A stretch of 64,000 nt of DNA, from IMG/VR virus record IMGVR_UViG_3300046808_001241, positions 124,001 through 188,000 of that record, one strand, 5' to 3'. The notes under the pieces are model-generated. The model had not been told where the DNA came from. It saw nothing but the letters and a program-made list of their open reading frames with translations, and searched no databases. Below, piece by piece: positions 7,414 to 45,586 of the stretch. Every line of letters begins with the position of its first letter. Position 1 is the stretch's first letter. A program made the position numbers and the translations under genes. The stretch comes from a virus.

Positions 7414-7768
7414 AATTTAAAAATTTCTCATGAAATATTTAAGCTAATTAATGTGAGACAGAAAATGTAAATACTTTAATGACGGGATTGATTACGAAGT
7501 CAAATATAAAAAAGGCATTGAACTCGAAAAAAATTGAAAAGACGAACACGAAATCGCCAAAAACCTCAATCGAGTATCGAGATTGCTTTTGTACTTAAAT
7601 ACCAGACATGTTTGATGTTCTTGTATATTGTTTAGAAGAATACGAAAAACGCTTGGATTCTAGAGACTCAATGTGTGATCTCGTAGACGATAAAAATCAA
7701 AAAGATATTAATAATATATATATGCAATAAAACAGCTTTCTCAAAATATTATAAAACGTTTTGATGCT
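7414..7768. other. Low-coding intergenic stretch with possible gene remnants
   Basis: About 355 bases with no convincing gene. On the + strand the frame from about 7457 reads YFNDGIDYEVKYKKGIELEK and, after one TGA, KDEHEIAKNLNRVSRLLLYL up to 7609. This looks like real coding sequence broken by a stop. A short + strand frame at 7608-7730 follows. No hairpin terminator stands out. The stretch separates the adhesin genes from the glycan cassette. Confidence 0.4.
7608..7730 (+). CDS. Possible 40-residue protein
   Basis: ATG at 7608 to TAA at 7728-7730 gives an acidic peptide beginning MFDVLVYCLEEYEKRLDSRD. It has protein-like composition and a helical pattern but no recognisable ribosome site or relatives. 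It may be a small early gene or part of a decayed one. Confidence 0.3.
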   Translation: MFDVLVYCLEEYEKRLDSRDSMCDLVDDKNQKDINNIYMQ

Positions 7769-7957
7769 CTAGTGAAAATCCCTTAGGTAGCTTTTAGGTT
7801 CGTCTGCAGAACCTTCAGAATCTGCAACGTCGCTTGTGCTTTCATAATCATCCTCTGCATAATGTCCATAATGTTGTTTGTATAATTCAGGAAAAAGAGT
7901 ATAGATTTCAACTCTCATGCAATATTCAGCGTCATCTTCCCATTCAAACTGTTTCAT
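7769..7957 (-). CDS. Small acidic hypothetical protein
   Basis: A 62-residue, strongly acidic, Tyr-rich protein (start MKQFEWEDDAEYCMRVEIYT). It is the last gene of the glycan-modification cassette, 12 bases after the WcbI-like gene's stop. I do not recognise it. Confidence 0.5.
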   Translation of the reverse strand: MKQFEWEDDAEYCMRVEIYTLFPELYKQHYGHYAEDDYESTSDVADSEGSADEPKSYLRDFH

Positions 7958-7969
7958 AAATTCTATTAT

Positions 7970-8801
7970 TCACACTATATCTTCAACCTTCAAATCCCTT
8001 CCTTTAAAGTTTCTGTAGTCTAAATTAGGAAACGTTTTTGTGAAAAAATTAAACTGTCTTGGGTCTACGCTATCGAACCCTGGATACTCTAAATTCGCAA
8101 TAGGATAAACAGACCTGTCTATGTCCAATATTTTGTATAACCTGTTTATCGTCTCTGTAAAATAACATTCATTCATATGATTATGAGAAACACATAATAA
8201 TTTGTTTTGAAATTCTTTTTCTATATAATCACACATATTAATCCGATTATCATATAAATCAGATTCTTCTTTATATCTTTGCCTGTTTTCGTTTCTATAT
8301 TTTTGATAATTTAGATTAAATGGATATTCATTTTTCAATATTGCAGCAAGAGCAGGATCCTCGGATTTTTGGAGATAGTTTATTATTTCTTCGGCATTAT
8401 TTGCTTTAGTTTTAACGTATTCTATGTACGGAGAAAATCGCCTTGCATCTGTTAAATGAGCAAAAAACCGAGTATCCGGAATACAAATTTTTAAACCGGT
8501 TGCTATTGTATCATGTAAGTAGGTTGTTTTGAGTTCATCTATTACTGATGTTCCAGAGTGATCTTGAAATACAAAAATCTCAGCCTCTCTAATTTTAGAA
8601 TGAATACAGTCCTTATAGATTTCTTGAGCTTCTCTGTTTTCAGGAGACCACACAGCAAAGACACCATGTTCGTTCCAAAAAGGTTTCAAACCACAGTCCT
8701 TGCAAAGTTGAACGTCAAATTTATCCGACAATTTTAATCTAAAATGTTTGGCGACAACTCCAATTTGGCAGTTGCCATAAAATAATATCTTTTTTTTTCA
8801 T
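7970..8801 (-). pseudogene. WcbI-like polysaccharide-modification protein, frameshifted at A9
   Basis: The intact frame from 8797 to 7970 encodes about 275 residues beginning KKKILFYGNCQIGVV. The GNCQ motif after a hydrophobic strand, the later IFVFQDHSGTS segment, KICIPDTRFF and VSHNHMNECYF together resemble the WcbI family, SGNH-like proteins of capsular polysaccharide biosynthesis. No ATG lies in this frame: a TTG at 8731 would delete GNCQ. An ATG at 8799-8801, three bases after the upstream gene's stop, is one base out of frame because of a nine-adenine run (8790-8798). Eight adenines would give MKKKILFYGNCQ. So the gene is either broken, switched by slippage, or carries a homopolymer sequencing error. 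It belongs to the sulfotransferase/glycosyltransferase cassette. Confidence 0.65.
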
Positions 8802-8804
8802 TGG

Positions 8805-39955: not shown

Positions 39956-40153
39956 ATGTTCAAAAATATTTACTACAAAACCTTAGTTTGGACTTCTTAT
40001 CAAATTGGAGATATTTTGAGTAATTTTGAATATGAATGGAGTTATAACCTCTATCAAAAATGCATGAGCTTTTCTTTAGATTGCGATGAGCATATTGATT
40101 TTTGGTTTTGGAAAGAACCTCCTTTGAACGACGATGAGGATGACAATTTATGA
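39956..40153 (+). CDS. Small Trp/Tyr-rich protein upstream of nrdB
   Basis: A 65-residue protein (start MFKNIYYKTLVWTSYQIGDI) with an aromatic N-terminal half and an acidic tail. Small proteins of this look occur in T4-like phages, function unknown. It overlaps the nrdB start by four bases, so it is translationally coupled to nrdB. Confidence 0.65.
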   Translation: MFKNIYYKTLVWTSYQIGDILSNFEYEWSYNLYQKCMSFSLDCDEHIDFWFWKEPPLNDDEDDNL

Positions 40154-41142
40154 AAACACAAAACAGACCTAAAATATTTGAAGAACAGATAGCAAGAAAG
40201 CCAAATCATTTTTCTTGGACGGACTCGTTCGTCGAGAGTATTCAAAACGGATTTTGGACGCATCGGGAATTTAACTTCAAATCAGACATTCAGCAATTTA
40301 AAGTTAATTTGACCGATCAAGAAAGAGATATTATTATCCGCACGCTTTCTGCTATTGGACAAATTGAAATTGCTGTAAAAACATTCTGGGGAAAGCTCGG
40401 AGAGAATTTGAGATTTCCAAATTTTTCTGACCTAGGTTATACTATGGCCCACACAGAAGTCATTCACAATAATGCTTATGAGCGTCTTATTGACGTATTA
40501 GGCTTAAGTGAAGTGTTTGAAGAAAACTTAAAACTTGATTGGATTCAAGGACGGGTTAACTATCTTCGTAAATACACTCACAAGTTTTATAAAGATTCAA
40601 AGAAACAATATCTTTATGCTATTATCTTGTTCACGTTGTTTGTTGAGAACGTTTCGTTGTTTAGTCAGTTCTATATCATTAACTGGTTTGCAAGGTTCAA
40701 AAACGTTCTTAAAGATACAGACCAACAAGTCAAATACACACGCAATGAAGAAAACCTCCATGCTTTGATTGGCATTAAAATTATCAACACTATTAGAGAA
40801 GATTATCCAGAAATGTTCGATGAAGAGCTGGAACAAAAGATTCTTCACGAGGCAGAAGAGGCTTATAAGTCAGAAGCAAAGATTGTGGATTGGATGATTA
40901 ACGGCATTCAAGAAGAAGGATTGACTGCTCCAATCCTCAAAGAATTCATTAAGAACAGAATTAATGAATCGTTAACTCAAATTGGTTTTAAAACAGCATT
41001 TGAAGTTGATAAAGATCTTTTAAAGACTACAATGTGGTTTAATGAAGAATTGCTTGGAGAGAACGCGACAGATTTTTTTCATAGTCGGCCCACTTCATAT
41101 GCAAAGAACAATCAATCATTTTCTGAAGATGACTTGTTTTAA
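40150..41142 (+). CDS. nrdB: Aerobic ribonucleotide reductase small subunit
   Basis: A 330-residue class I R2 protein that holds the di-iron/tyrosyl radical for ribonucleotide reduction with NrdA. Metal ligands and radical residue are recognisable: E73, then E103-x-x-H106 and Y110 in HTEVIHNNAY, E166 in LFVENVSLF and E201-x-x-H204 in NEENLHALIG. The C-terminal tail (QSFSEDDLF), which in R2 proteins binds NrdA, is present and is duplicated at the end of the next gene. A possible ribosome site, GAGGA, lies about nine bases upstream. The partner nrdA is at 43937, separated by an endonuclease and two other genes. Supplies dNTPs during infection. Confidence 0.95.
   Translation: MKTQNRPKIFEEQIARKPNHFSWTDSFVESIQNGFWTHREFNFKSDIQQFKVNLTDQERDIIIRTLSAIGQIEIAVKTFWGKLGENLRFPNFSDLGYTMAHTEVIHNNAYERLIDVLGLSEVFEENLKLDWIQGRVNYLRKYTHKFYKDSKKQYLYAIILFTLFVENVSLFSQFYIINWFARFKNVLKDTDQQVKYTRNEENLHALIGIKIINTIREDYPEMFDEELEQKILHEAEEAYKSEAKIVDWMINGIQEEGLTAPILKEFIKNRINESLTQIGFKTAFEVDKDLLKTTMWFNEELLGENATDFFHSRPTSYAKNNQSFSEDDLF
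41107..41142 (+). repeat. NrdB tail repeat, copy 1
   Basis: The last 12 codons of nrdB, including the stop. They match 42865-42900 at 34 of 36 bases. Both differences are synonymous (AAC/AAT and TCT/TCC), and similarity stops at the stop codon and just upstream of the repeat. Confidence 0.95.
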
Positions 41143-41196
41143 GTTATAAGCTGACTTTACTCGAAAAAGTACACGACTTAGATTAAGTAATCTTGT

Positions 41197-42900
41197 ATGT
41201 TTACACGCGTATTTGATACAAAGTCTTTTATCGATAAATCCAAACAGAAATTTAGTTCCAAATTTAGTTACGAGGATACGGTATATACAAAATCAACAAA
41301 TAGACTTAACGTAATTTGCAGCATTCACGGCAAAGTCGAAATTCTTCCAGGAGTGCACTTGTCTGGAGCGGGATGCCCGAGCTGTTCGAGGGCGTTAAAT
41401 GGCTTGAGTCATAGAATGGACACTGAAACGTTTATTAAAAGAGCTCAAGCTAAACATAATAATTTTTACAATTACGACAAAGCAACATTTCAAGGTAGTT
41501 TAAAAAACCTAATAGTCACTTGTCCTGTGCACGGAGATTTCGCAATTCAAGCAAGTCGACATATAAATAACGGAGCTGGTTGCTCAAAGTGTGGTTTTAT
41601 TCGTCGTGTAAAAAAATGCACTACCCCACTCGATGTGTTTTTAGAAAAGACATCCAAAAAACCAAATTTCGAAAATTATGATTTCAGTTTAGTTAACTTT
41701 AAAAATAAAAAAGAATGGGTTACCGTTATTTGTAAAAAGCACGGAGAGTATAAAACTAAACCTAGATATATTGATAATAGTGCGTTTTTCGGTTGTAGTC
41801 AGTGCAAATGCGAAAGCAGAACTTTCACTACTGATACTTTTATCGAAAAAGCTAAACAAATACATGCCGAAAGATATCTTTATGATAGAGTCGAATATAA
41901 AGATTCACACACAGAGGTGACACTAATCTGTAAAACTCACGGAGATTATATTTGCAAACCTTATGTACACTTGGCGGGAGGAGGCTTTTGTCCAAGCTGC
42001 ACTAACAATGGTGTAAGTTCTTATGAGAGAGAAATAAAATTATTTTTGCAACAAAACGGCATCAGCATAGAATCTTCTTTTAGAGGATTTGACGGATTGA
42101 AGGAAATAGATTTAATTTGTCACAACAAAAAAATAGGAATTGAAGTTAATGGGTTATATTGGCACTGTGACTTATACAAAGAAAAAAACTTTCATAAACA
42201 CAAAACGGAAACTTTGTTAAAGCAGGGATATCGACTAATTCATATATTTGAAGACAGCTGGCTTCTCAAAAAAGACGTTTGTTTGTCAATTTTATTGAAT
42301 GCGTTTAATAAAACTCCCAATAAAATTTACGCAAGAAAGTGTGAACTAAAACTAATTTCAGATAAAGAGTCAAAACATTTTTTAAATGCAAACCACGTAC
42401 AAGGTTCTTGCGTTTCTAAAATAAGATATGGTTTATTCTATAATAACGAGCTTGTATCGGTTATGACCTTCGGCTCTAACAGAAAAAATTTGGGCAATAA
42501 ATCAAAACCAAATGAATACGAACTACTAAGGTTTTGTAACAAAACCTACACCAATGTCGTTGGAGGAGCTTCTAAACTGTTTGCTTCTTTCATCAAACAA
42601 CACAACCCTCGGAAAATAACAAGCTATTGCAATAGAAGTATCGGAACGGGAAATCTATACAAGCAGCTTGGATTTCAGTTTTTATACAATACGCCTCCAA
42701 ACTATTTTTATGTCAGAGGAAGTACAAGATTGCCGAGATTTAAATTTCGAAAAGATGTGTTAATTAAACAAGGACATGATAAAAACAAAACAGAAGCTTG
42801 CATTATGAAGGAATTAGGGTATAATAGAATTTATGACTGTGGAAGCATGAAATTTGAATGGACAAATAATCAATCATTTTCCGAAGATGACTTGTTTTAA
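41197..42900 (+). CDS. EDxHD-type homing endonuclease carrying the NrdB C-terminal tail
   Basis: A 567-residue protein. Residues about 5-268 are four repeats with the pattern C-x-x-H-G-x(~13)-H-x-x-G-x-G-C-x-x-C, probably zinc-binding DNA-recognition units. Residues about 272-365 (SSYEREIKLFLQQNG, IGIEVNGLYWHCD, HIFEDSW) match the Vsr-like EDxHD endonuclease fold of I-Bth0305I-type homing enzymes. Residues about 370-555 form a further domain often seen in phage Hef-like proteins. The last 11 residues (NNQSFSEDDLF) copy the NrdB tail. It likely makes nrdB its homing site. A 54-base gap precedes its start; only three bases follow before the next gene. Confidence 0.85.
   Translation: MFTRVFDTKSFIDKSKQKFSSKFSYEDTVYTKSTNRLNVICSIHGKVEILPGVHLSGAGCPSCSRALNGLSHRMDTETFIKRAQAKHNNFYNYDKATFQGSLKNLIVTCPVHGDFAIQASRHINNGAGCSKCGFIRRVKKCTTPLDVFLEKTSKKPNFENYDFSLVNFKNKKEWVTVICKKHGEYKTKPRYIDNSAFFGCSQCKCESRTFTTDTFIEKAKQIHAERYLYDRVEYKDSHTEVTLICKTHGDYICKPYVHLAGGGFCPSCTNNGVSSYEREIKLFLQQNGISIESSFRGFDGLKEIDLICHNKKIGIEVNGLYWHCDLYKEKNFHKHKTETLLKQGYRLIHIFEDSWLLKKDVCLSILLNAFNKTPNKIYARKCELKLISDKESKHFLNANHVQGSCVSKIRYGLFYNNELVSVMTFGSNRKNLGNKSKPNEYELLRFCNKTYTNVVGGASKLFASFIKQHNPRKITSYCNRSIGTGNLYKQLGFQFLYNTPPNYFYVRGSTRLPRFKFRKDVLIKQGHDKNKTEACIMKELGYNRIYDCGSMKFEWTNNQSFSEDDLF
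42865..42900 (+). repeat. NrdB tail repeat, copy 2, fused to the endonuclease
   Basis: The last 12 codons of the endonuclease gene, matching the nrdB end at 34 of 36 bases. It gives the endonuclease an R2-type C-terminal peptide. Confidence 0.95.
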
Positions 42901-42903
42901 AGT

Positions 42904-43671
42904 ATGAGTAAAAGTCATTCTTGGCTTTCAGACCAACTTAAAGGTTTTCCTAACTTTGCAAAAATGTTTCGAGATGTTCTTGCAGAGGAATTGCAGCAAA
43001 CCTATTTGGAAGAAGGTTTGATTGCGTCTTGGGATATTGAAAAATTAATCAAAAGAATATCAAACATTATTGGAGACAAAATTTTAGAAGTACAAAAAAC
43101 TACTCTTCCAGACTTTTTAAAAAATACCAACTACGGAGAAGTCTTTACTGTTAATATATTTTTAAAAGAAAAACTAACAAAAGAAGAAACAAATCAAGTA
43201 GACCAACTTTTGGATTTGTTTGGGTATACTAATGCTTTGTGGATTGAACCAGACGGACTTCAGTTGCAGCTAGAACCAAGGTATCCAGTCAAACTTAACG
43301 AACTTATAAAACAAACTTCTGACAACTATCTTTTCCATATAACTCAAAAGAAATCGCTAGACAAGATTAAAGAAATAGGATTAGCTCCAAGACCTTCAGA
43401 AACTAAATTTGAACATCCGGGAAATAGAATTTATTTGTTGTGGCTGCCAGCAGTACAAAATAAAGGGTTGATTGTGAACGCTCTTGTTAAACAGTTAGCA
43501 AACAACAAAAAGCTGGAAGAAAAAGATTTTGCTGTTATGATGCTAAAATATAACCCTAAATACGACTACTACCTAGATGATACTACAACATTGCTCGATC
43601 AAAAAATTATAGCAATGTTCACCACAAATAATATCAACCCAAAAGAAATTGTTAAAATTATAAATTTATGA
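42904..43671 (+). CDS. ADP-ribosyltransferase-fold-like protein, paralogue A
   Basis: A 255-residue protein related to the genes at 60240 and 60974. Residues 1-135 form an N-terminal alpha/beta domain that includes YLEEGLIASWD. Residues 142-255 contain LFHITQKKSLDKIKEIGLAP (FHIT at 144-147), EHPGNRIYLLW (R175, Y177) and a final strand. The order H-x-T, then a helix and GL, then R-x-Y resembles the beginning of DarT, Tpt1/KptA and other ADP-ribosyltransferase-superfamily proteins. Fold assignment is inference. The start lies three bases after the endonuclease stop, and the gene ends with ATGA overlap into the next. Confidence 0.6.
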   Translation: MSKSHSWLSDQLKGFPNFAKMFRDVLAEELQQTYLEEGLIASWDIEKLIKRISNIIGDKILEVQKTTLPDFLKNTNYGEVFTVNIFLKEKLTKEETNQVDQLLDLFGYTNALWIEPDGLQLQLEPRYPVKLNELIKQTSDNYLFHITQKKSLDKIKEIGLAPRPSETKFEHPGNRIYLLWLPAVQNKGLIVNALVKQLANNKKLEEKDFAVMMLKYNPKYDYYLDDTTTLLDQKIIAMFTTNNINPKEIVKIINL

Positions 43672-43913
43672 AACGAATATACAAACATTATCCGAATATA
43701 TTCAATTTCAAAATTGGTAAAAAACTAAATATCGGACTTTGGAAGTATCAATCTAGTATAGTTTTTAGATGGATAAATCTCCATCCAAAAATTTGGAAGT
43801 TTTGGAGATTAAATTACTTAAAGGGTAAGTTTGTATACTTTGAGTGCACAATATATAAAAAAATAGAAATTTGGTGGGACGGATTTTTATTTCAAATAGT
43901 GCTAGATAAATGA
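43668..43913 (+). CDS. Small basic aromatic protein
   Basis: An 81-residue protein rich in Lys, Trp, Phe and Ile (start MKRIYKHYPNIFNFKIGKKL). It overlaps the upstream gene by ATGA and lies 23 bases before nrdA, so it belongs to the nrd operon. Composition could suit membrane or nucleic-acid contact. No family is recognised. Confidence 0.6.
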   Translation: MKRIYKHYPNIFNFKIGKKLNIGLWKYQSSIVFRWINLHPKIWKFWRLNYLKGKFVYFECTIYKKIEIWWDGFLFQIVLDK

Positions 43914-43936
43914 GAAATTTTTTATAAGATTAACAT

Positions 43937-45586
43937 ATGACTGAAAAATACTATTGGCTTAACAATGACTCGCGAAAATTTCTTGAGCGTGGATATCTTC
44001 TTGAAGAAGAAACTCCGGAACAACGAATTCGAGACATTGCAGAAGCTGCTGAAAAATATCTTGGTATAAAAGGGTTTGCTGATAAATTCGAAGAATACGT
44101 TGCAAAAGGTTTCTACAGCTTAAGCTCGCCTGTATGGTCCAACTTTGGAAGAAAACGTGGTCTTCCTATAAGTTGTTTTGGATCTTACATATCCGATACA
44201 ATGGAATCGATTTTGCATAAAGTTTCAGAAGTAGGTATTATGACAAAACACGGAGGAGGAACTTCTGCATACTTTGGAGCAATTCGAGGAAGAGGAACTA
44301 CAATCTCTTGTGGAGGAGAATCTACAGGATCTGTACATTTTATGGAGCTTTACAACAAGCTAATGAATGTCGTTTCGCAAGGTAATGTTCGTAGAGGCTC
44401 ATTTGCTGCATATCTTCCCATCGATCACAAAGATATTGAAGAGTTTCTTGAGATTCGTTCAGAAGGACATGACATCCAAGAAATGTCGTTTGGTGTATGT
44501 GTTTCTGATCAATGGATGAAAGACATGGTTGATGGAGACAAAGACAAACGCAAGATTTGGTCCAAAGTCATTAAAAAGCGGTTCGAATCTGGTTATCCTT
44601 ATATCTTTTTTTCTGATACAGCCAATAATAACGCTCCACAAGTTTATAAAGACAAAGGACTAAAGATTCACAATTCCAATCTTTGCACGGAGATTTTTTT
44701 ATCCAACTCAGAAGAGGAATCTTTTGTTTGTGATCTATCGTCACTTAATCTCGAAAAGTGGGATGAAATCAAAAATACAGATGCTGTTCAAACATTAGTG
44801 TACTTCCTCGACGCTGTGATGTCAGAGTTTATTGACAAAACAGAAGGCATGCAATTCATGGAAGCTCCAAGAAAGTTTGCGATTAACCAAAGAGCTCTTG
44901 GTGTAGGTGTTCTTGGATGGCATTCGCTGCTCCAAACTAAGATGATTGCTTTTGAGTCATTTGATGCGAAGATACTTAATGTGGATGTTTGGAAGACAAT
45001 ACGGGAACGAGCTGACAAAGCCACAGAAGAACTTGCTGGTCTTTTTGGAGAACCAGAATTGCTTAAGGGCTATGGAAGAAGGAATACAACAACTCTTGCC
45101 ATTGCACCCACAACCAGCTCAGCGTTTATCTTGGGCCAAGTATCCCAGTCAATTGAGCCCTATAATTCAAACTATTATGTTCGCGACTTGGCTAAAGGTA
45201 AGTTTTCATACAAAAATCCATACCTTAAATCACTGCTAAAACAAAAGGACAAAGATAATGATGAAACATGGTCTTCGATTCTTGCTCATGGTGGTTCTGT
45301 TCAGCATCTTGATTTCTTATCAGATAATGAAAAAGACGTATTCAAAACTTTTGGAGAGCTTTCCCAAAAAGAAATCGTCATCCAAGCGGCGCAAAGGCAA
45401 AAATACATTGATCAAGGTCAATCCTTAAACGTAATGATTCCTCATGATGCTAAACCAAAAGACGTTAATGAGCTTTTGATATTTGGTTGGGAACAGGGAA
45501 TCAAGAGTTTCTACTACCAAAAATCTACCTCGCCCTCACAAAAGCTAGCTAGATCGATTCTTACCTGCAAATCTTGTGAAGGGTAA
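43937..45586 (+). CDS. nrdA: Aerobic ribonucleotide reductase large subunit
   Basis: A 549-residue class I R1 catalytic subunit. The N-terminal ATP-cone is absent, so allosteric activity control by dATP at that site is not expected. Key residues are visible: C80 in LPISCFGSY; N248, C250 and E252 in SNLCTEI; C265 in FVCDLSS; radical-transfer Y526-Y527 in SFYYQKS; and the C-terminal redox pair C544/C547 in TCKSCEG. It pairs with NrdB at 40150. It is shorter than cellular NrdA (over 700 residues) but all catalytic positions are present. Its stop overlaps the next ATG as TAATG. Confidence 0.95.
   Translation: MTEKYYWLNNDSRKFLERGYLLEEETPEQRIRDIAEAAEKYLGIKGFADKFEEYVAKGFYSLSSPVWSNFGRKRGLPISCFGSYISDTMESILHKVSEVGIMTKHGGGTSAYFGAIRGRGTTISCGGESTGSVHFMELYNKLMNVVSQGNVRRGSFAAYLPIDHKDIEEFLEIRSEGHDIQEMSFGVCVSDQWMKDMVDGDKDKRKIWSKVIKKRFESGYPYIFFSDTANNNAPQVYKDKGLKIHNSNLCTEIFLSNSEEESFVCDLSSLNLEKWDEIKNTDAVQTLVYFLDAVMSEFIDKTEGMQFMEAPRKFAINQRALGVGVLGWHSLLQTKMIAFESFDAKILNVDVWKTIRERADKATEELAGLFGEPELLKGYGRRNTTTLAIAPTTSSAFILGQVSQSIEPYNSNYYVRDLAKGKFSYKNPYLKSLLKQKDKDNDETWSSILAHGGSVQHLDFLSDNEKDVFKTFGELSQKEIVIQAAQRQKYIDQGQSLNVMIPHDAKPKDVNELLIFGWEQGIKSFYYQKSTSPSQKLARSILTCKSCEG

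Follow-up and report, generated by a model that had tools for sequence, protein, structure and literature searches.

The nrdB locus and its duplicated end

The window, i.e. the whole 64,000-nt (64 kb) stretch of DNA analysed here, derives from an IMG/VR contig, a phage record of 217 kb, and carries the genes for both ribonucleotide reductase (RNR) subunits with a homing endonuclease gene between them. The features of relevance, in window coordinates, are as follows.

40150-41142, + strand: nrdB, class I ribonucleotide reductase small subunit, full length, 330 aa (Pfam PF00268, E=3.5e-44; PHROG 86, E=1.1e-61)
41107-41142, + strand: functional nrdB tail, the first of the two copies, reading NNQSFSEDDLF plus stop and probably element-borne (34/36 to 42865-42900)
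41143-41196, + strand: 54-nt leader from the nrdB stop to the endonuclease start (from the sequence)
41197-42900, + strand: homing endonuclease of the Hef-like type, 567 aa, whose C-terminus is the displaced nrdB tail, joined in frame (PHROG 559, E=3.5e-111; PHROG 3339 'homing endonuclease', E=3e-96)
41455-41595, + strand: DUF723 zinc-ribbon, residues 87-133, the best-scoring stretch of N-terminal CxxC repeats and presumed to bind DNA (PF05265, E=2.8e-10)
42025-42300, + strand: nuclease domain of Vsr/MTES_1575-like type, spanning residues 277-368 (PF18741, E=6e-5, not reaching the curated cut-off)
42343-42717, + strand: C-terminal domain resembling Mom, spanning residues 383-507 (PF25680, E=1.7e-4, again short of the cut-off; PHROG 1384, E=2.9e-7)
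42865-42900, + strand: displaced, resident nrdB tail, forming the last 11 endonuclease residues (matches the intact nrdB end of L004/L005 at 34/36, with synonymous differences only)
42901-42903, no strand: 3-nt spacer to the next gene, equal in length to the spacer after nrdB in L003, L004 and L005
42904-43671, + strand: unnamed conserved ORF, 255 aa (87% identical to L005:5185-5949)
43937-45586, + strand: nrdA, ribonucleotide reductase large subunit (PF02867, E=7.3e-97)

Both the nrdB and the endonuclease ORF close, in frame, with NNQSFSEDDLF and a stop codon. The initial annotation had described a 34 of 36 nt match with synonymous differences, a sharp loss of similarity on both sides of it and a gap of three bases to the next gene, and all of this is borne out by recomputing the match and translating the ORFs: the two mismatches are AAC/AAT and TCT/TCC, identity outside the repeat falls to 3/12 in the upstream block and 6/12 in the downstream block, and the following ORF starts at 42904, three bases past the second stop. 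The extent of the repeat is about 36-44 nt, with the longest exact runs shared by the two window copies being at most 18 nt. Elsewhere in the 64 kb no match to the tail 36-mer exceeds 23/36 on the + strand or 24/36 on the opposite one, and in the full record just two places match, both at nrdB/endonuclease. The 'ART-like' label formerly attached to the ORF at 42904-43671 finds no backing in Pfam or PHROGs, neither of which yields a match, and when relatives were sought with that ORF alone only L005 was found.

The endonuclease and its added residues

From Pfam and PHROGs, the endonuclease has DUF723 zinc ribbons at its N-terminus, followed by a core of MTES_1575/Vsr-like type and then by a C-terminal part resembling Mom. 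Zinc-ribbon repeats, Vsr-like core and Mom-like part are the features by which Hef-like (PHROG 559/3339) enzymes are recognized, and on its domain plan the 41197-42900 product is a Hef-like homing endonuclease; the catalytic motif is shared with these enzymes as well, E303, D305, E316 and H323 being invariant among aligned homologues. Homologous endonucleases stop at a ...KFEW/...IW strand or a few residues later, and the last 11 residues of the window enzyme are therefore an addition. Residues 562-567 are predicted, by a modest model from six sequences, to be disordered (pLDDT <50). Hef-like relatives inspected at other sites differ in having no copy of the end of a neighboring gene, with the exception of L181 (below), and none of the eight Hef-like genes of named phages checked for displaced ends has one. 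L171 aligned to the query apparently through to the final residue, but its ORF ends ...YDCGAKLYKLNL and has no nrdB tail. The phage of the window has a second Hef-like endonuclease (L002:1492-2925, about 104.6-105.5 kb in the parent record), which immediately follows a gp23-like major capsid gene and shows no displaced end. A fragment of the capsid gene beside that copy was a candidate for a displaced end, but the repeat apparent in translation is absent from the DNA and was discounted.

An uninterrupted relative and the origin of the two tails

The expectation from the initial annotation was that a relative lacking the endonuclease would have an uninterrupted nrdB, three bases, and then the same downstream gene, and this is the arrangement in L005 (IMGVR_UViG_3300042310_001120). 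There, nrdB (86% identical) with its TAA is followed by 3 nt, the 255-aa ORF (87%) and nrdA, which is the order that the window has beyond the endonuclease. What the endonuclease carries at its C-terminus is therefore the displaced end of the resident nrdB. It has two silent differences from the L005 nrdB end, and the upstream copy has four. The upstream tail, now the functional one, would then be either a newcomer or a local copy. Within the window itself import is likely, but it turns on few bases. The nrdB of L003 is 97% identical to the window gene with no sharp break in identity at the DNA level, although eight of the nine protein differences between the two fall in the last 55 residues, which is suggestive of a chimeric gene.

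Displaced gene ends at other loci

The displacement of a gene end is not peculiar to this locus. A frame-blind scan identified two genes for GIY-YIG endonucleases, a family unrelated to the Hef-like enzyme, that each close with an in-frame nrdB tail. The L210 endonuclease ends ...KRRKSQSFDESDLF and the neighboring nrdB ends KKSQCFDESELF, each followed by a stop; in L220 the corresponding ends are ...KKNQSFSEDDLF and SNQSFGEEDLF. Compared with the intact ends of element-free relatives the displaced tails match at 35/36 (L210) and 32/36 (L220) positions, all changes being synonymous, whereas the functional and displaced tails within each locus differ at 7/36 and 9/36 respectively, including amino acid changes. 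In L181 the gene concerned is a different one: a Hef-like enzyme beyond the tail-sheath gene ends ...KPTGASFENI, and the sheath gene itself ends ...TPTGASFEDI, with 21 identical nt in a run (sheath end at about 1230 and endonuclease end at about 3061, reverse strand, in reverse-complement coordinates). Such ends are uncommon: a wider scan of 71 endonuclease places found them at four, and most GIY-YIG loci have kept no displaced tail. Three high scorers in the end-duplication scan (L144, L148 and L149) proved to be tandem endonucleases, and the repeats there are not ends of host genes.

A mirror case, at a gene start, is found in L003. The start of nrdA there is occupied, at 7673-8804, by an endonuclease that has HTH repeats and a GIY-YIG-like motif and is flanked upstream by a displaced nrdA head (MTEKYYWLNKDSRKF) and downstream by a new, diverged one (MKTTEKYYWLNKDSVAF). 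The displaced head has a 34-nt run in common with the intact nrdA of L005, and 23 of the 41 protein differences between the L003 and window NrdA are in the first 69 residues. The arrangement thus recurs independently with an unrelated nuclease family, at another gene and at a gene start.

Imported nrdB ends beside related elements

The complementary feature, a foreign end on the functional gene, is clear in L114 and L188. In L114 an orthologous endonuclease (46% identical) directly follows nrdB, its TTG start overlapping the nrdB stop and its end being at the nrdA start, and it has no nrdB tail. The GC3 of the L114 nrdB is 0.81 to codon 270 and 0.33 from codon 271 of 324 (LR for the break 46.6, versus a maximum of 17.8 in 500 permutations). 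Its body is nearest to L214 (74% for the body, 62% for the tail), whereas its tail is nearest to the AT-rich lineages L011/L029 (75%/74% for the tail, 62%/65% for the body). From the break together with these affinities, the last 53 codons of nrdB therefore arrived with an AT-richer element.

The GIY-YIG family directly follows nrdB in about 30 distinct loci, with no match in named phages and none in the cellular genomes searched. L188, which has the element, and L032, which does not, are about 99% identical over some 630 nt of nrdB; beyond this L188 has a different last ~66 nt of nrdB, a leader and the endonuclease, and rejoins L032 exactly at the nrdA ATG. In this family the tails linked to the element carry amino acid changes, QCF for QSF, rather than silent ones alone. 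On a tree of nrdB bodies the element changes state 21 times and the QCF tail 16 times, the two doing so together (6.6 independent pairs agree and none oppose, median p 0.016). The QCF tail is present in none of 38 uninterrupted loci and in 21 of 30 with the GIY-YIG element, counts which are not independent, the second set having been picked by its endonuclease. Import of flanking sequence is also the outcome of ordinary T4-type co-conversion (PMC2988022); the distinguishing feature is the displaced, fused gene end.

The variant associated with GIY-YIG, QCFDE..LF for QSFSEDDLF, was noted in L036, L040, L041, L043, L048, L053, L054, L059, L062, L066 and most of L188-L221, with L041, L043 and L059 having the variant tail without the element, possibly as the scar of one that was lost. 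A conserved short leader (TATTCTAYAGGTCG-like) extends from the nrdB stop to the GIY-YIG start in L009, L031, L040, L053, L054, L062 and L066, and is possibly part of the mobile unit.

Probable replacement of a gene end by a homing cassette

The window locus is very probably a mobile homing endonuclease cassette that replaces the 3' end of nrdB, and the best reading of its mode of action is that it resembles that of the yeast WHO elements and the mobile ORFs (mORFs) of fungal mitochondria. The endonuclease would cut the end of nrdB, or the point where nrdB meets the following gene, in phages that lack the element. Repair from the carrier would copy the nrdB 3' end, leader and endonuclease into the break, proceeding on the left through nrdB homology and on the right through homology with an already displaced end. 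In the founding event the right side may instead have relied on short A-rich microhomology between the end of the endonuclease gene and the start of the nrdB tail; A-rich stretches available for such a junction are GGAAAAATA / GGAAAAATAC at the end of the L114 endonuclease and CAAAAAATA / CAAAAAATAATC at the start of the L005 nrdB tail. Repair that is one-sided and leaves microhomology junctions is known from the T4 td intron (PMC2988022). In consequence nrdB would remain full length with a new end, while the recipient's old end would be pushed downstream and, in the present case, fused in frame onto the 3' end of the endonuclease ORF. Since the host gene would at no stage be lost, insertion into an essential gene would be tolerable. 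The imported end presumably resists cleavage. Protection by the two silent changes, as suggested in the initial annotation, is a hypothesis: the insertion itself parts the sequence at the junction of nrdB and the next gene, and in the GIY-YIG family the tails that go with the element have amino acid changes too. Weighing against the cassette reading are the near identity of the two window tails, the smooth nrdB identity with L003 and the rarity of displaced ends.

Another origin for the repeat, though an unlikely one, would be local: the insertion copied ~36 nt from the end of the resident nrdB, as when a staggered break is filled on both sides, and no foreign end was involved. The difference of just two bases between the window copies, and the extent of some 36-44 nt, speak for this. 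However, the parallel copies in L210 and L220 differ at 7/36 and 9/36, with amino acid changes, and in each it is the displaced copy that resembles the element-free relatives; L114 and L188, moreover, have frankly imported nrdB ends.

In class I RNR, docking of the R2 C-terminus on R1 is established, and a quite different reason for the tail would be that the endonuclease keeps the NrdB C-terminus to bind NrdA, whether as a tether for the enzyme or to modulate ribonucleotide reductase. DNA cutting at nrdB could in this way be tied to the dNTP-synthesis machinery, a proposal that is distinctly improbable. In its favor, all 11 residues are conserved and the tail in the window is predicted to be disordered. 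The four displaced gene ends (window, L210, L220 and L181) are all in frame, for which the expectation with random frames is ~1/81, but out-of-frame remnants would decay and escape detection. Set against its nearest intact counterpart, each of the three displaced nrdB tails has silent differences only, although comparison with conserved intact genes cannot place these differences on a branch. Against the proposal, the L114 ortholog has no tail, L181 has a tail-sheath end for which there is no NrdA partner, and position alone, given the empty site in L005, accounts for the tail; because of these three points mimicry of NrdB toward NrdA is not needed. Of the two readings initially put forward, insertion with a replacement tail thus stands, on the evidence of L005, L114, L188, L210 and L220, and the captured docking peptide is set aside as the reason for the tail in view of L114 and L181.

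The window being an IMG/VR contig, misjoining of two nrdB-containing fragments during metagenome assembly also comes to mind, but it is very hard to credit: the copies differ at two bases, exact runs of 18 nt or less are short for assembler k-mers, and the same architecture is present in unrelated contigs. A spliced intron or an intein, with the downstream copy as second nrdB exon and the endonuclease intron-encoded, can be dismissed even though homing endonucleases in RNR genes are often intronic (PMC3653736; PMC2988022), with nrdB already complete upstream, the endonuclease lacking an intein domain, and Rfam (E<=1) giving no group I/II intron or other match in 40000-44500 or in L210, L220, L114, L003 and L188.

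Relation to known mobile elements

The closest parallels to a cassette that replaces a gene end are eukaryotic. WHO elements occur at FBA1 in Torulaspora and Lachancea yeasts (Coughlan et al. 2020, PMC7282813). Like the window endonuclease gene, which begins 54 nt past the stop of an intact nrdB and outside any intron or intein, the WHO endonuclease gene follows closely on an essential host gene. A 3' end of that gene is part of the WHO element, and after homing the old 3' end of the recipient persists as a fragment on the far side of the endonuclease, as the displaced nrdB tail does at 42865-42900. The host gene at WHO loci is also discordant in history between its two ends (PMC7282813), a feature that is clear in L114 and L188 and suggestive in the window. 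WHO proteins are, however, intein-like LAGLIDADG-zinc finger proteins of yeast nuclei, whereas the enzymes here are Vsr-like or GIY-YIG, and the FBA1 fragments are ~400 bp and unfused, in contrast to displaced ends of ~30-40 nt fused in frame to the endonuclease. The intein-like LAGLIDADG domain with C-terminal zinc finger that marks WHO descent has no counterpart in the window enzyme, with its DUF723, MTES_1575/Vsr-like and Mom-like domains.

Fungal mitochondrial mORFs with inserted C-termini are known from Allomyces atp6 and from Glomus atp6, atp9, cox2 and nad3 (Beaudet et al. 2013, PMC3630166). There too a foreign C-terminus has been inserted together with an endonuclease ORF, the native C-terminus is found downstream and is closest to uninvaded relatives, and both LAGLIDADG and GIY-YIG enzymes occur (PMC3630166). 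These are mitochondrial and mostly LAGLIDADG, whereas the present cases involve phage RNR and tail-sheath genes and include a 5' (gene-start) version. By mode of action the locus fits the WHO/mORF kind; by descent it belongs to neither.

Among phages, the intronless homing of T4 (SegF, SegG, MobE) likewise involves free-standing endonucleases beside essential genes, including nrdA/nrdB, and cutting of the neighbor gene leads to replacement of flanking sequence (PMC2988022). The cases reviewed there differ in being insertions between genes, and no mention was found in that review's treatment of T4 of duplicated gene ends or of endonucleases fused to the tail of a resident gene. Aeh1 mobE is a free-standing endonuclease inserted, without splicing, in an RNR gene, nrdA, which is there split into two proteins (Friedrich et al. 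2007); at nrdB the replacement end instead keeps the host gene whole. The open-licence literature searched yielded no example from a phage of a gene end duplicated beside a homing endonuclease. The novelty lies in the phage host and the families of nuclease involved, in displaced ends that are very short and joined in frame to the endonuclease, in the version at a gene start, and in the repeated occurrence at the RNR operon.

Significance

Homing elements are usually divided into those borne by introns or inteins and those free-standing between genes, and the WHO work in yeast proposed a third structural class in which the end of the host gene is replaced (PMC7282813). The loci considered here indicate that gene-end replacement exists in phages too, where it seems to have arisen several times, with two or more families of nuclease (three or more should the L003 enzyme prove distinct), with either end of a gene being affected, and with at least two kinds of gene, for ribonucleotide reductase and tail sheath. 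Pieces of essential proteins can in this way be appended to selfish endonucleases. The process explains why otherwise near-identical phages differ in the NrdB C-terminus, the part that docks on NrdA, and the ends of such genes mislead phylogenies. Pairs of occupied and empty sites are at hand in L188/L032 and window/L005.

Other features of the ribonucleotide reductase region

The 42904-43671 ORF has a paralogue, ~30% identical, upstream of nrdB in relatives (L003:5340-5777, L004:5337-5993 and L005:3528-4184). The 3-nt junction that follows nrdB leads into one or the other of two gene modules, one in L005 and the window and the other in L003/L004. A further type of interruption affects nrdA in L007 (7642-9300), and also in L213, L214 and L219, where at about residue 250-280 there is an intein-like segment with an HNH-type insert (CVTGDTLIT...VHNC).
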